Source: an uncultured Caulobacterales bacterium
GTDB taxonomy: Bacteria > Pseudomonadota > Alphaproteobacteria > Caulobacterales > Maricaulaceae
Direction: 5' to 3'
Assembly: GCA_937928165.1 (NCBI GenBank)
Contig: CALFVT010000004.1
Location: forward strand, 62,001 to 126,000
Length of the DNA stretch: 64,000 nt
Made by a program: the position numbers and the translations under genes. Positions 41,835 to 48,960 of this stretch are shown here, piece by piece; position 1 is the first letter of the stretch; every line of letters begins with the position of its first letter. Under the pieces are notes generated by a model. That model was given only the letters and a program-made list of their open reading frames with translations. It searched no databases and was not told the DNA's origin.

Positions 41835-43151
41835 ATGAGCACGGCCCTATCGCATATGAGCTCGGAAGCACCGAATAAGGTCAAGCCCTTTGGCACGGCG
41901 GAACGCACCATAGCTATGCGCTATTTACGGGCGAAAAAATCCCAAGGCGGCGTCGGGCTGATCGCGGGGATATCTTTTGCCTGTATAGCCCTTGCGATTG
42001 CGGCCATGATTATCATCATGAGTATTATGAACGGCTTTCGGGAAGAGGTCATTCGCCTGACCATTGGGTCTGAGGGCCATATGTTTATCGCCGTCGCCGA
42101 AGCCAATCCGCCGCCCGGCACGCTAGATGATTTAGAAATTACCATTTCTGGTCTACCTAAAGTCACTAAAGCTTTTGAATTTACTCAAGATTTTGCGGGC
42201 GTACAGGCCAATGGCCGCGTGACGGCGGGGCAGGTGATTGGTATGGAGCTACAAGCACTTGAAACCTTTGAGTTAATCGCAGGAAACATACAGCAAGGCG
42301 GGCTTGACGGCTTTGCGAGCGGGAGCGGATCTGACCCTATGGTGGTTATTGGCGTGCAAATGGCGGCGCAGCTTGGTTTGGCTGTAGGGGATAAAATTGT
42401 CTTACTCTCTGGGCGCGTGCGGCAATCTCCCTTTGGGCCGCCAAAACCAGTTTATAAACCTTATACCATTGGCGGTATATTTGCGACGGGGCTTTATGAA
42501 GCTGACCTGACCTATATTTATATGGATATTAAGGAATCGACCCTCTTGTTCCATGCGGGGGTGAGCCAAGGCACGGTTATGGTACGCCTTGAGAATGCAG
42601 ATGACGTCGATGACATACGAAGCCTTATTCGAGAGGTTATTAAACAGCCCATATTCCTTGAAACTTGGCGCGATAGGAATGCAAGTGTTGCAACGGCCTT
42701 GCGGACTGAGCAGGTTGCCATGCGCCTAGTGTTTATGATTGTCGTTATTATCGCAATGTTCCCCGTTTTAGCAGCAATGATAATGCTTGTTAAAAACAAA
42801 TCCAAAGATATTGCGGTGCTACGCACCATTGGTGCGACGAGCGGTTCCATATTACGAATATTCTTAATGGCGGGGGCAATGATTGGCCTGCTTGGAACAT
42901 TTATTGGCATTATTGGTGGGATTTTATTCTGCCTTAATATTAGCGCGGTGCAGAGCTTTATTGAAATCTTTACGGGGCCCTTGTTCCCCGCGGAGCAATA
43001 TCAACTGGCATCGGGTATTCCGGCCAAAATGGTTGGCTCCGAAGTCGCAGGCGTGGCCTTTTGGGGGTTTTTAGTTTCGGCGCTTGCCACGTTTTTCCCA
43101 GCGTGGTCGGCCTCCAAAATCGATCCAGTGGAGGCGCTGCGCTATGAATGA
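41835..43151 (+). CDS. lolC: Lipoprotein-releasing ABC transporter permease LolC/LolE
   Basis: Inner-membrane permease that hands lipoproteins to LolA. The 438-residue protein has one N-terminal helix (about 38-62), a large periplasmic domain and three C-terminal helices, the LolC/E topology. The coupling region is KNKSKDIAVLRTIGAT and the C-terminus reads FPAWSASKIDPVEALRYE. Only one permease gene is present, so it may act as a homodimer (inference). It overlaps lolD by 8 bases. Confidence 0.93.
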   Translation: MSTALSHMSSEAPNKVKPFGTAERTIAMRYLRAKKSQGGVGLIAGISFACIALAIAAMIIIMSIMNGFREEVIRLTIGSEGHMFIAVAEANPPPGTLDDLEITISGLPKVTKAFEFTQDFAGVQANGRVTAGQVIGMELQALETFELIAGNIQQGGLDGFASGSGSDPMVVIGVQMAAQLGLAVGDKIVLLSGRVRQSPFGPPKPVYKPYTIGGIFATGLYEADLTYIYMDIKESTLLFHAGVSQGTVMVRLENADDVDDIRSLIREVIKQPIFLETWRDRNASVATALRTEQVAMRLVFMIVVIIAMFPVLAAMIMLVKNKSKDIAVLRTIGATSGSILRIFLMAGAMIGLLGTFIGIIGGILFCLNISAVQSFIEIFTGPLFPAEQYQLASGIPAKMVGSEVAGVAFWGFLVSALATFFPAWSASKIDPVEALRYE

Positions 43152-43869
43152 TTTAGCCAATACATTAGTGCAAAGCGGAAAGCTACGCCCGATATTATCA
43201 GTTCGCAACCTTGTTCGCTCTTATAAGTCAGGTGAGGGCGTTCTTGAGGTACTACGCGGCGCAGATATTGACGTGTTTCCCGGGGAAATGATTGGGTTGA
43301 TTGGCCCGTCGGGCTCGGGGAAATCTACCTTACTACATGCTGCGGGACTTTTGGAAAAACCGAATGCGGGTAAGGTCTATATTAACGGGCGGGAATGCCT
43401 GACGCTCCCTGATGGCCAACGCACAGATATTCGCCGGCAAAGCGTCGGAGTTGTTTACCAATTCCATCACTTACTTAAAGAATTCACTGCCCTTGAAAAT
43501 GTTGTCCTGCCGCAAATGATTGCGGGGCGCTCTCGCGCGGCGGCAGAAACGGAAGCCATGCGCTTACTTGACCTTATGGGCTTGACCCCGCGCTTGGGTC
43601 ATAAGCCCTCGCAAATGTCAGGCGGAGAGCAACAGCGCGTCGCCATTGCCCGCGCCATATCCAATAATCCACAAATTTTACTTGGCGATGAGCCAACAGG
43701 TAATCTTGATCCGGCGACCTCTAACCGGGTGTTCCAAAGCCTGCATGACCTCACCCGCTGTGAAGGGGTGGCCGCCCTGATTGCCACGCATAATATGGAT
43801 CTCATTCCTTTTATGGACCGTGTGTTGACAGTACGGAACGGATTAATAGTACCGTTCACAGGGGTTTAA
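43144..43869 (+). CDS. lolD: Lipoprotein-releasing ABC transporter ATPase LolD
   Basis: ATPase partner of LolC. I choose ATG 43144, inside the lolC end; the ATG at 43084 would extend it over lolC. The 241-residue protein has Walker A GPSGSGKST, Q-loop in VYQFHHLL, signature MSGGEQQRVAIARA, Walker B ILLGDEP and the H-loop IATHNMD. Confidence 0.95.
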   Translation: MNDLANTLVQSGKLRPILSVRNLVRSYKSGEGVLEVLRGADIDVFPGEMIGLIGPSGSGKSTLLHAAGLLEKPNAGKVYINGRECLTLPDGQRTDIRRQSVGVVYQFHHLLKEFTALENVVLPQMIAGRSRAAAETEAMRLLDLMGLTPRLGHKPSQMSGGEQQRVAIARAISNNPQILLGDEPTGNLDPATSNRVFQSLHDLTRCEGVAALIATHNMDLIPFMDRVLTVRNGLIVPFTGV

Positions 43870-43925: not shown

Positions 43926-43990
43926 GAGTAACCGATTCGTTAAATATTTGAAAACAAACAAAATAATTTCTTGTCAACAAGCTTTATTCA

Positions 43991-44018
43991 TTGTTTGTTC
44001 TGTGTTAGAACATAAATA
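43991..44018 (+). promoter_or_regulatory. Candidate promoter of the small SOS gene and dnaE
   Basis: -35-like TTGTTT (43991-43996) and -10-like TAAATA (44013-44018) with a 16-base spacer. The LexA half-sites lie over the spacer and -10, the geometry expected for repression. The promoter call is moderate; the operator itself is clearer. Confidence 0.4.
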
Positions 44019-44022
44019 GAAC
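43997..44022 (+). promoter_or_regulatory. LexA operator (SOS box), alphaproteobacterial type
   Basis: Three half-sites in a row: GTTC (43997-44000), GAAC (44008-44011), GAAC (44019-44022), each separated by exactly seven bases. The pair at 44008-44022, GAAC-N7-GAAC, is the exact reverse complement of the known alphaproteobacterial LexA box GTTC-N7-GTTC. The first two make an additional palindromic GTTC-N7-GAAC. It is 32 bases before the small ORF. Confidence 0.8.
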
Positions 44023-44053
44023 AAATAATGTGTGGACAGATAAGGATATTGAC

Positions 44054-44146
44054 ATGAAACAACTCGTTTTAGATTTAAGTGCAGGTATGATAGCCATAGG
44101 ATTCGTATCAACCATGACATTATGGTTGATGGTTTTAGGTAGCTAA
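44054..44146 (+). CDS. 30-residue single-span membrane protein, SidA-like
   Basis: ATG 44054 to TAA 44144-44146, with a strong ribosome site TAAGGA seven bases upstream. The peptide has a short charged N-terminus (MKQLVLD) and then one hydrophobic helix, residues about 8-28, containing FVSTMTLWLMVLG. It is directly downstream of a LexA operator and 16 bases before dnaE. Size, topology and SOS control match Caulobacter SidA, a 29-residue inner-membrane inhibitor of FtsW that delays division after DNA damage. I cannot align the two here, so the homology is inference. Confidence 0.7.
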   Translation: MKQLVLDLSAGMIAIGFVSTMTLWLMVLGS

Positions 44147-44162
44147 TCATCCGGAGTTGATT

Positions 44163-47100
44163 TTGGCACGAACGCTTTCGCCTTTTGTTCATCTAAGGTC
44201 ACGCTCTCCTTATTCGCTGCTTGAAGGGGCGATGCAAATATCTGATATGGCTAGCTATTGTTCCAAATGGAATATGCCGGCTCTTGGAATTACGGACACG
44301 AATAATCTTTGCGGCGCGCTCGAATTTTCGAGCAAATGTGTCGATAAGGGCATACAACCCCTTATTGGCCTGACTTTATCTATTGATATTGGCGATCATG
44401 ACCCGCTCGCACATGGCCATAAAGAACCGGACGGCACGCTTGTTTTATTCGCACAAAATGAAGCGGGATATCAAAACCTTATGGCTCTTTCGAGTGCCGC
44501 GTTTTTGGACGTTGAAGCCACAGACTTGCCCCATGTTCCGTTTGATGTGGTGCTACGACATGCGGAGGGCCTTATTGCTCTCACGGGCGGGCCTGACGGG
44601 GTGCTATGCCGCCTGACCTATCAAGGGCAGTTCAAACAGGCCGAAGCCTATTTGGATCAGCTACAAGACGGCTTTAAAAATCGGCTTTACATAGAGCTAC
44701 AACGTCACGGCATGTCTACCGAGCTTGGGACAGAGGCAAAACTTATCGCATGGGGTTATGAAAAAGCGATTCCCCTTGTCGCGACCAATGAGCCTTATTT
44801 CCTTGAGCCGACCATGCACAAAGCTCACGACGCGCTATTAGCCATATCGGAAGGCTCATATGTCCTTGAAAAAAACCGCCGTAAGGTGACGACACAGCAT
44901 TATTTCAAATCCACAGAACAAATGGTTGAGCTGTTTAAAGACCTCCCTGAGGCCATTGAAAACACAGTAGAAATTGCGCAGCGTTGCGCGGTTCGCTCAG
45001 TCGCCCGCAAACCTATTTTACCGGGCTTTGGGGATGAGACCCTAAGTGAAGCGGATATTCTAAGGGAAGAAGCCAAGGCAGGACTTGAAGCGCGTCTCGA
45101 AAAAATACCGCTGGCCACAACCCGCCAAGCCTATTTCGAGCGTCTCGACTTTGAGCTTAACGTCATCGAGGGTATGGGGTTTCCGGGCTATTTCCTAATC
45201 GTTTCTGATTTTATTAAATGGGCTAAAGACCAAAATATTCCTGTTGGACCTGGGCGGGGCTCTGGCGCTGGCTCTGTGGTGGCCTGGTCATTGACGATCA
45301 CTGACCTTGATCCGCTGCGTTATGGCCTCCTCTTTGAGCGATTTTTAAACCCCGAACGGGTTTCTATGCCCGATTTCGATATCGACTTTTGCCAAGAGCG
45401 GCGCGGAGAGGTCATCCGCTATGTGCAGCAAAAATATGGCAGCGACCAAGTGGCGATGATCATTACCTTTGGAACGCTGCAGGCGCGTGCGGTTGTGCGC
45501 GATGTAGGGCGGGTATTGCAAATGCCCCTCGGCCAAGTTGACCGCCTCGCCAAACTTGTGCCGTCCAATCCAGCTAATCCGGTCTCGCTGTCTCAAGCTA
45601 TTCGTATGGAAAAAGGGCTTCAAGAAGCGCGAGATTCCGAACCAGCTGTAAAAGAGCTTTTAAGCATGGCCCTCGAGTTGGAAGGGCTGTACCGCAATGC
45701 CTCAACCCATGCTGCCGGCGTCGTCATCGGAGACCGCCCTTTAACCCAGCTCGTGCCGCTTTACCGTGATCCGCGCTCTGATATTCCCGCTACGCAATTT
45801 TCCATGAAATGGGCGGAAAAAGCCGGCCTTGTAAAATTTGACTTTTTGGGACTTAAAACCCTCACAGTAATTGACCGCGCTTTAGGGTATCTGAGGGCGC
45901 AAGGCCGCGAAATTGACCTTGATGCGGTCTCAACGGATACGCCCTCAGCCTATAAGAATTTGGCAGACGGACTGTCTGCAGGGGTGTTTCAGCTTGAAAG
46001 CTCAGGCATGCGCGATGTGCTACGCAAAATGGCCCCAGATTCTATCGAGGAACTCACTGCCCTGATTTCCCTTTACCGTCCCGGCCCGATGAAAAATATC
46101 GATAGCTATATTGACCGTAAATATGAACGCATACCGATTGAGTATCCGCATCCTAGTCTTGAGGAAATATTAAAAGAAACCTACGGTATTATTATCTACC
46201 AAGAACAAGTCATGAAAATTGCGCAGGTTCTATCCGGCTATTCATTGGGCGAGGCGGATATGCTTCGCCGCGCTATGGGTAAAAAAGATAAAGCGGAGAT
46301 GGACCGCCAGAAATCCCGTTTTATCAACGGCGCCGTTGAGCGAGGTGTTGACGCTAGATTAGCGGGCGATATCTTTGAACTTGTGAATGAATTTGCAGGT
46401 TATGGATTTAATAAATCCCACGCCGCCGCCTATGCGATGATTTCCTTTCGTACGGCCTATTTAAAGGCGGAGTTTCCTACTGAGTTCATTGCAGCTTCGA
46501 TGAGCCTTGATTTGAATAATGTCGATAAACTCGCGCAGTTTTATAGAGAAGCCAAGCGCATGGCGATCGAAGTCAGGCCGCCCTGCGTTAATCACTCCAT
46601 GGCAGATTTTGACGTCGCAGGAGGCGCTGTTCTTTACGCGCTTGGGGCGCTTAAAAATGTGGGGCTTGAGGCGATGAGACATGTTGTAGCTGTGCGTGAA
46701 GACGGCGGCCCATTTAAAGACTTATTTGATTTTGCTAAACGTGTGGATGCCCGTATTGTTAATAAGCGTTGTTTTGAAAACCTTGCGCGGGGTGGGGCTT
46801 TTGATGCCCTAGAGCCTAACCGTGCTAAAGCCTTTTTAGCTGCGGCAACGCTGCAATCTGTTGGCTCCCGCGCCACACAAGAGCGCGAATCGGCGCAGGC
46901 GGCCTTATTTGGTGATAGCCAAATTGAAATGGCAGAGCCAGAGCTGGCAGATCCGCCGCCTTGGTCTTTGGTCGAAAAACTAGAACATGAATTAGGTGCC
47001 ATAGGCTTTTATTTTGGCGGCCATCCGCTACAGGCTTATGAAGCGGTGCTTCTACAAAAAAAGACAATATTTTCAGCCGATATTGAAAGTGAATATCGCG

Positions 47101-47621
47101 GTGGAATAAAGGCTATGCGCCTTGCGGGGGTTGTGCGTAAACGCCAAGAGCGCATGTCACAGCGTACAAAAAAGAAATTCTGCTATCTTGCTTTGTCTGA
47201 TCCCACAGGTGATTATGAAGTCTTTATTGGCCAAGAGCTTCTGGATCGTTACCGAGATATTATGTCCGCCGGGGCGCTTGTTGAGGTCCAAGTCAGCGTG
47301 GATGAACGGGACGGGGAGCTTAAAATCTTTGGCAATTCAATCGCGTCACTGGATACTCAGGCCCAGCAAAAACTTAAAGGCCTTATCATAAGGCTACGTA
47401 GTGCCAATGATGAAAGCCTTGATGACCTGCATGAGGTTATATCAGCGGTAAAAGCTGCGCCGTCTCGTAAAATGGGCTTTGTCGATATTATTGCGCCCCT
47501 TGAGGCGGGGCGGGAAGCTCATTGGCGATTACCTGATAAAATAGGTATTGGGGATAAGGCCCGTGCTGCCCTTAAATCTTCCCGCTTTGTTGAAGTCATA
47601 GAAGATGTTTATGACGGATGA
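44163..47621 (+). CDS. dnaE: DNA polymerase III alpha subunit (DnaE1)
   Basis: Replicative polymerase. I choose TTG 44163 as start: CCGGAG ends six bases before it, while the TTG at 44157 touches the ribosome site. The 1152-residue protein starts with the PHP domain (FVHLRSRSPYSLLEGA). It has the catalytic region GPGRGSGAGSVVAWSL and MPDFDIDFCQERRGEVIRYV with two catalytic Asp. The C-terminal part carries HhH and OB-fold domains. Length and the neighbourhood (lolD, rpsB) fit DnaE1 rather than the SOS polymerase DnaE2/ImuC. It probably shares a transcript with the SOS small ORF. Confidence 0.95.
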   Translation: MARTLSPFVHLRSRSPYSLLEGAMQISDMASYCSKWNMPALGITDTNNLCGALEFSSKCVDKGIQPLIGLTLSIDIGDHDPLAHGHKEPDGTLVLFAQNEAGYQNLMALSSAAFLDVEATDLPHVPFDVVLRHAEGLIALTGGPDGVLCRLTYQGQFKQAEAYLDQLQDGFKNRLYIELQRHGMSTELGTEAKLIAWGYEKAIPLVATNEPYFLEPTMHKAHDALLAISEGSYVLEKNRRKVTTQHYFKSTEQMVELFKDLPEAIENTVEIAQRCAVRSVARKPILPGFGDETLSEADILREEAKAGLEARLEKIPLATTRQAYFERLDFELNVIEGMGFPGYFLIVSDFIKWAKDQNIPVGPGRGSGAGSVVAWSLTITDLDPLRYGLLFERFLNPERVSMPDFDIDFCQERRGEVIRYVQQKYGSDQVAMIITFGTLQARAVVRDVGRVLQMPLGQVDRLAKLVPSNPANPVSLSQAIRMEKGLQEARDSEPAVKELLSMALELEGLYRNASTHAAGVVIGDRPLTQLVPLYRDPRSDIPATQFSMKWAEKAGLVKFDFLGLKTLTVIDRALGYLRAQGREIDLDAVSTDTPSAYKNLADGLSAGVFQLESSGMRDVLRKMAPDSIEELTALISLYRPGPMKNIDSYIDRKYERIPIEYPHPSLEEILKETYGIIIYQEQVMKIAQVLSGYSLGEADMLRRAMGKKDKAEMDRQKSRFINGAVERGVDARLAGDIFELVNEFAGYGFNKSHAAAYAMISFRTAYLKAEFPTEFIAASMSLDLNNVDKLAQFYREAKRMAIEVRPPCVNHSMADFDVAGGAVLYALGALKNVGLEAMRHVVAVREDGGPFKDLFDFAKRVDARIVNKRCFENLARGGAFDALEPNRAKAFLAAATLQSVGSRATQERESAQAALFGDSQIEMAEPELADPPPWSLVEKLEHELGAIGFYFGGHPLQAYEAVLLQKKTIFSADIESEYRGGIKAMRLAGVVRKRQERMSQRTKKKFCYLALSDPTGDYEVFIGQELLDRYRDIMSAGALVEVQVSVDERDGELKIFGNSIASLDTQAQQKLKGLIIRLRSANDESLDDLHEVISAVKAAPSRKMGFVDIIAPLEAGREAHWRLPDKIGIGDKARAALKSSRFVEVIEDVYDG

Positions 47622-47704: not shown

Positions 47705-47788
47705 GCACGAGGCGTGGCGTAGACCGTGTTGGTTTATTGTCAATTCCGGTGAACATTTGTTTCACACCTCGTGCAAGGCCAACCGGAA
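47705..47788 (+). promoter_or_regulatory. rpsB leader with interleaved inverted repeats (candidate pseudoknot)
   Basis: Two perfect pairings cross each other: A, GCACGAGG (47705-47712) with CCTCGTGC (47767-47774), and B, TTCCGGT (47744-47750) with ACCGGAA (47782-47788). The order A-B-A'-B' defines an H-type pseudoknot whose last strand touches the purine-rich ribosome site just before the ATG at 47803. GTGAA/TTCAC inside loop A can add a local hairpin. This is the expected layout for autoregulation by S2, known for the E. coli rpsB leader; here it is predicted only. Confidence 0.55.
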
Positions 47789-47802
47789 GAAAGAGAAACC
47801 TT

Positions 47803-48960
47803 ATGGCACTACCTGATTTTTCTATGCGTCAACTCCTCGAAGCAGGGGTTCATTTTGGGCATCAAACTCATGCGTGGAATCCAAAAATGGATTCATATAT
47901 ATTCGGCGCACGGTCAAATGTTCATATTATTGACCTATCACAAACAGTCCCGCTCTTGCACCAAGCCCTTGTTCAAGTGCGCGAAGTTGCGGCCAAAGGT
48001 GGACGTATTTTATTCGTCGGCACAAAACGTGCGGCGCAAGACCCGATTGCAACGGCGGCTAAACGGTGCGCGCAATATTATGTCAATCACCGCTGGCTTG
48101 GCGGTATGATGACGAATTGGAAGACCGTATCTAACTCTATCGCCCGCTTACGTGAGCTTGAAACCATGCAAGAGAACGGCGGTGCGGCAGGCTTGACTAA
48201 AAAGGAAGGCCTACAGCTTGCCCGTGAACTCGAAAAGCTTGATAAAACCCTAGGCGGGATCAAAGATATGGGCGGTAAGCCGGACCTTATGTTTGTTATT
48301 GACACTAATAAAGAAGGCATTGCGATTAAAGAAGCGCGCCGCCTTGGTATTCCTGTTGTTGCCATTTTGGATTCAAATTGTGACCCTGAATCGGCTGATT
48401 TTCCTATTCCGGGTAATGATGATGCGGCCCGCGCGATTACGCTTTACTGCGACTTGATTGCGGATGCGGTTCTTGACGGCATGACCGAAGCTCAAGCGGG
48501 CGCTGGTATTGATCTCGGCGCAGCGGTAAACCCTGTCGAATTAGCGATTGCTGATATTGCCCCGGCTGCTGAAGTGCCAACGGAGCCGGCGCCTGTTGCG
48601 GAAGCTGCGCCGCTTGCTCAGGCTCCAACTCAGGCCCCAAGCGCCGAGGAGTCTGAATATCTTCGCGTAACTCGTGAATATGATGCGGGTGTGGATCCAG
48701 AGGTTGTTACGAAGATTGAAAAACATTTGAGCGCGTCCCTGAGTAATCGTGATAGTAAATATGTCGCCTGCAGCGATGAAACAGAACTTGAGACCATTGC
48801 TAAAGGTTTTATGGTCAAGAAAATGGGTGTTGATGACAATGATGCGGCCATGGCCAAAATCAAAGCTGTTTGCGAGACAATGAAACCAACACGTATGAAA
48901 AACCGCGTAACATTTTATTACTTATTGGCGAAAAACGAAGGTAAACTTGGCGAATTTTAA
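47803..48960 (+). CDS. rpsB: 30S ribosomal protein S2 fused to a C-terminal DUF2853 domain
   Basis: Start at ATG 47803 ([20 protein letters not shown]). Residues 1-245 are a normal S2: [63 protein letters not shown]. An Ala/Pro-rich linker follows (about 251-283). Residues about 284-385 match DUF2853: [36 protein letters not shown], and the family-typical end [20 protein letters not shown]2 is usually 240-270 residues; this is 385. There is no internal stop, so the fusion is continuous. DUF2853 proteins are otherwise small and separate and have no known function. Confidence 0.92.

Follow-up and report, generated by a model that had tools for sequence, protein, structure and literature searches.

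A SidA-type micro-ORF behind predicted LexA boxes upstream of dnaE in an alphaproteobacterium outside Caulobacteraceae

A 30-codon frame directly upstream of dnaE in an uncultured marine, Hellea/Robiginitomaculum-like bacterium of the Maricaulaceae is, judged by its pattern of substitution, a real gene selected as a protein, and because position, control and profile agree, its product is very probably an orthologue of SidA, the small division inhibitor of Caulobacter crescentus. On this sequence evidence, the SidA type gains a new member outside Caulobacteraceae that annotation had left out. The gene lies within a stretch of 64,000 nucleotides (hereafter, the window), and the features of its neighborhood are the following.

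43144 to 43869, plus strand: gene for a LolD-type ATPase, the conserved upstream neighbor of the sidA-type frame.
43986 to 44000, minus strand: opposed near-LexA box GAACAAACAATGAAT (GAACN7GAAT), which supplies the upstream half-site GTTC.
44008 to 44022, plus strand: LexA box GAACATAAATAGAAC, a GAACN7GAAC direct repeat whose motif is shared with lexA, recA, uvrA/ssb and the orthologues of the frame.
44041 to 44046, plus strand: ribosome-binding site TAAGGA, seven bases 5' of the ATG, read from the sequence.
44054 to 44146, plus strand: sidA-type gene (30 amino acids, one transmembrane helix, basic N-terminus), identified from its translation, its relatives and profile comparison.
44157 to 47621, plus strand: dnaE, replicative DNA polymerase III alpha, starting at TTG 44157 or TTG 44163.

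The frame runs from ATG 44054 to its stop at 44146 (MKQLVLDLSAGMIAIGFVSTMTLWLMVLGS) and encodes a peptide that, like SidA, is small and has a single predicted transmembrane helix (peak 17-residue hydropathy, 2.09); the 93 bases, the ribosome site with its spacing and the one helix all read as the initial annotation had described them. The alternative dnaE start at TTG 44163 is suggested by its spacing to GGAG at 44152-44155. Depending on which start is used, 10-16 bases separate the stop of the sidA-type frame from dnaE, and because of this short gap the two genes are probably co-transcribed, with dnaE on the same transcript as the sidA-type gene.

A strong hairpin of 11 pairs (44106-44131) lies within the end of the sidA-type frame, just 5' of the dnaE start; it is terminator-like by pattern and could affect dnaE translation or transcription. 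Further downstream, the frame of rpsB (ribosomal protein S2; 47737-48960) has a long C-terminal extension, comprising an Ala/Pro/Glu-rich stretch followed by another segment of roughly 100 residues.

Conservation and selection within the family

A tblastn search with the window peptide retrieved relatives from the same family at E-values of 2e-8 to 1e-4, directly 5' of dnaE. With dnaE as an independent anchor, we then read the upstream region in all 56 genomes sampled from the family and found an ORF of about 30 residues with one helix in 55 of them, including three (G018, G031 and G005) that were missed by the ORF filter and confirmed by eye; the sole exception is a highly fragmented genome (G002). 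At nearly all of the 55 loci, the ORF is preceded by one LexA box or two, which in some genera deviate from the exact motif at one base, and a G+A-rich ribosome site precedes the ATG in nearly all. The conservation of frame and ribosome site in related genomes, which the initial annotation had named as a check, is thus borne out. Across 21 independent pairs, synonymous changes amount to 0.41 and nonsynonymous changes to 0.068 per site, that is, a pN/pS of 0.17 (p about 2e-60), indicating that the amino acids are under selection.

Predicted LexA operator and SOS regulon

Upstream of the frame, the sequence GTTCtgtgttaGAACataaataGAAC (43997-44022) contains three half-sites, GTTC at 43997-44000, GAAC at 44008-44011 and GAAC at 44019-44022, separated by exactly seven bases each (GTTC-N7-GAAC-N7-GAAC). 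The initial annotation had described these as one LexA operator with three half-sites; all three are present at that spacing, but the GTTC half-site belongs to the minus-strand near-box, so that two facing LexA boxes, not a single box of three half-sites, are the better reading of the segment 43986-44022.

By itself, the motif is uninformative in a sequence of this size: 0.95 chance occurrences of the two half-sites are expected per window, and 0.15 of the three half-sites with up to one mismatch, and GAACN7GAAC shows no excess, either across the window or genome-wide (33 genome sites versus 111 for the reversed control pattern). The case for an operator therefore rests on its context, which rises above chance because of the conservation of the locus, the purifying selection on the frame and the matching boxes before SOS genes of the same genome. 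The lexA gene itself, about 24 kb from the frame (G000:C4:130242), has the box GAACTTATATAGAAC 43 bases before its start, and the same motif precedes recA, ssb with the divergent uvrA, two Y-family polymerases, ruvC, and comM-like and radA-like genes, the kind of set expected of an alphaproteobacterial SOS response. Thus, as with SidA, a predicted LexA operator (GAACN7GAAC at 44008) precedes the gene, in a genome with lexA and a regulon carrying the same box. One of the SOS-boxed Y-family polymerases (from G000:C9:191517; L151:1118-2101) has its IMS domain from residue 52 and, N-terminal to it, about 50 residues with four cysteines in a zinc-ribbon pattern (CRDCG...CPSCG), an unusual extension.

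Among the relatives, the operator mostly consists of the GAACN7GAAC direct repeat alone, with two tandem boxes in some, and in several related genera GAACN7GAAW is the sole box type ahead of the orthologue. Tandem GAACN7GAAW boxes about 25 bases apart were observed at L166, L172, L185, L189, L222, L225-L227, L229, L230, L232 and L243, where they replace GAACN7GAAC as a LexA site that has drifted in its second half. Roughly half of the orthologues in the family survey have a TTGAC sequence resembling a -35 element 24-29 bases 5' of the LexA box, a spacing at which the first LexA half-site would overlap the -10 element; before the box in the window, this promoter element of many relatives was not found.

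Relation to SidA and proposed function

The reference for SidA is NF033228, the curated NCBI equivalog model div_inhib_SidA (cut-off, 35 bits), which identifies the ORF in the lolD-dnaE interval of Caulobacteraceae as SidA at E-values of 1e-15 to 1e-16. Among the 150 genomes searched from the order, 19 proteins scored over the cut-off, all from one family (f3, Caulobacteraceae) and all encoded directly 5' of dnaE, mostly behind a LexA box that matches exactly; lolD lies upstream wherever the available sequence extends far enough. The order lolD, LexA box, ORF, dnaE is therefore common to authentic SidA and the window, where the ORF likewise directly precedes dnaE. Six Caulobacter-like loci (L112-L117) have no exact box, so the operator has either drifted there or been missed by the strict pattern.

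The window peptide itself matches neither NF033228 nor any other NCBIfam or Pfam model; because it falls below the cut-off, as do eight other members from outside Caulobacteraceae, we do not file it under this narrow model. A hit elsewhere in the same genome (G000, C4:172445; E 0.08) contains an internal stop and, as with similar weak matches, was rejected as chance, because the model also yields sub-cut-off matches in E. coli, Bacillus and archaea.

Alignment with SidA, a check named in the initial annotation, is not significant for the single sequence (1.3 bits against a model of Caulobacteraceae SidA, a score equaled by half of the shuffles), but it holds at the level of profiles and through sequence intermediates. 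Since single-sequence comparison was insufficient, homology was assessed by profile. In an hhalign comparison, the profile of the family aligned with that of SidA, columns 1-22 on 1-22, at a probability of 95% (E 2.8e-8), with the Gly-Phe pair at 16-17 in register; the best of 300 column-shuffled versions of the SidA alignment scored 18.2, against 32.5 for the real one. The core genera compared directly with SidA gave a probability of only 26%. When a family model was trained on other genera, the window peptide scored 21.2 bits against it, a value reached by none of 20000 shuffles and none of 597 real transmembrane segments, and a model free of any Caulobacteraceae sequence placed 18 of 23 SidA proteins above all 20000 shuffles. 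Intermediates such as MRRMITDVSAAAAVLGFAWMMMVWSSAVAG and MRRVVQDVSAATAVLGFAWMIAMWGSVLGAA join the two patterns.

The resemblance in size, topology and control that the initial annotation had pointed to is therefore upheld: 30 amino acids in the window and 29 in Caulobacter SidA (CCNA_02004; NF033228), with one helix, a LexA box and a ribosome site in both. The two proteins also share the lolD-sidA-dnaE locus, the Gly-Phe residues, a basic start and an acidic residue 7. They differ in that the window peptide has Trp at position 24 and a WxMVLGx end where SidA has FVWMMC, in the operator, which in the window consists of two facing boxes, and in FtsW contact residue A31.

In Caulobacter, SidA is an inner-membrane protein that is induced by LexA cleavage and blocks division via FtsW, with a contact to FtsN, and its suppressors map to FtsW and FtsI (PMC4211646); a lexA mutant no longer forms filaments once sidA is deleted (PMC12700426), and low-confidence AlphaFold 3 models put SidA on FtsW (PMC13396833). 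By analogy, we consider it very likely that the window gene is a LexA-repressed, damage-induced sidA orthologue whose product holds the FtsW/FtsI/FtsN septal synthase inactive, with activity and target probably as in Caulobacter. In undamaged cells, LexA on the box or boxes at 43986-44022 would keep transcription low; damage would activate RecA, LexA would be cleaved and the sidA(-dnaE) message would rise. The peptide would then enter the inner membrane with its basic N-terminus inside, according to the positive-inside rule, and hold the synthase inactive, so that septation would wait for repair.

FtsW is present in the window genome, and F145 and A246, which are suppressor positions in Caulobacter (PMC4211646), are unchanged. 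A31, whose substitution lets Caulobacter cells escape specifically from SidA, is Leu in the window genome, so the contact surface may differ or be shifted. This lack of conservation of A31, together with the divergence of the C-terminal part of the peptide from SidA, would fit a SidA descendant that blocks division through another divisome partner (FtsN, FtsI or FtsQLB), which we regard as unlikely given that the N-terminal 22 columns align with SidA and that F145 and A246 of FtsW are conserved.

Much less probable is a leader ORF that controls dnaE translation and whose peptide has no function of its own. Such a role would agree with the short distance from the end of the frame to dnaE, 10-16 bases in the window and small in most relatives as well, and with an RNA that folds better than its shuffles (z -3.7), but conservation extends from the frame to the amino acids themselves, one helix is retained in every orthologue, the Rhizobiales ORFs end about 100-290 bases 5' of dnaE, and SidA function is proven at the same locus. 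Equally improbable is another SOS-induced membrane peptide, such as a TisB-like depolarising toxin, co-descended or convergent with SidA, for although size, single helix, LexA control and the weak direct similarity to SidA would suit it, the gene occupies the locus of SidA, matches its profile in register and is joined to it by intermediates, and an Rfam scan of the locus found no known RNA family or RNA element.

TisB and DinQ of E. coli are SOS-controlled hydrophobic peptides of about 30 residues as well, whereas they are toxins under antisense RNA control at an unrelated locus. YneA, SosA, ChiZ and DivS of Gram-positive bacteria are longer than the SidA-type peptide and have extracellular parts, and we know of no sequence or locus relation between them and the SidA-type gene. 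They resemble it in being small membrane proteins that inhibit septal synthesis under SOS control (PMC13396833). DidA of Caulobacter is likewise a small, DNA-damage-induced divisome inhibitor with one helix, but it comprises 71 amino acids, is controlled by DriD independently of SOS and binds FtsN (PMC4211646).

Distribution in Alphaproteobacteria and implications

We examined 80 public dnaE loci that were chosen regardless of the peptide, 78 of which had enough upstream sequence. In 25 of these, an exact box was accompanied by a qualifying ORF; 2 had a box only, 2 an ORF only (both SidA by the model) and 49 neither (Fisher p 7e-16); shuffled box-to-dnaE segments yielded a qualifying ORF 0.6% of the time. 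Box and ORF precede dnaE in Bradyrhizobium, Tardiphaga, Methylorubrum, Stappia, Aureimonas, Bauldia, Sneathiella, Aquisalinus and a Parvularculaceae MAG. With one genome per family across the class (86 examined), 8 had both, 2 the box only and 76 neither, so that the distribution is patchy outside the order. The peptides behind such boxes outside Caulobacteraceae that were scanned match no NCBIfam model. Compared with SidA by hhalign, the remaining, distant group gave an E-value of 3.7e-8, which supports homology of these members to SidA as a group and less securely one by one.

Because the combination of box, one-helix micro-ORF and dnaE recurs patchily in Rhizobiales, Sneathiella, Parvularculaceae and others, the LexA-sidA-dnaE module is probably ancient within Alphaproteobacteria. 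A broader reading is offered here tentatively, as a possibility short of an even chance: SidA would be the one member with a name in a family that spans Alphaproteobacteria, and SOS induction of an ancestral module of LexA box, one-helix inhibitor and dnaE would, through one transcript, halt septation and raise the replicative polymerase. The literature that we searched, which did not cover the original description of SidA, held no report of an extension beyond Caulobacteraceae, and priority is uncertain.

SidA is known from work on Caulobacter, and among the genomes searched the curated model assigns it in Caulobacteraceae only. Position between lolD and dnaE, behind GAACN7GAAC, provides a rule that points to candidate SOS division inhibitors where models name none, and natural variation among them shows which positions are important in a divisome inhibitor of 30 residues. 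The wider significance lies in the conservation of the LexA-sidA-dnaE module beyond Caulobacteraceae, here in a sister family, and the tight linkage to dnaE raises the testable question of whether the checkpoint is coupled to replisome supply.
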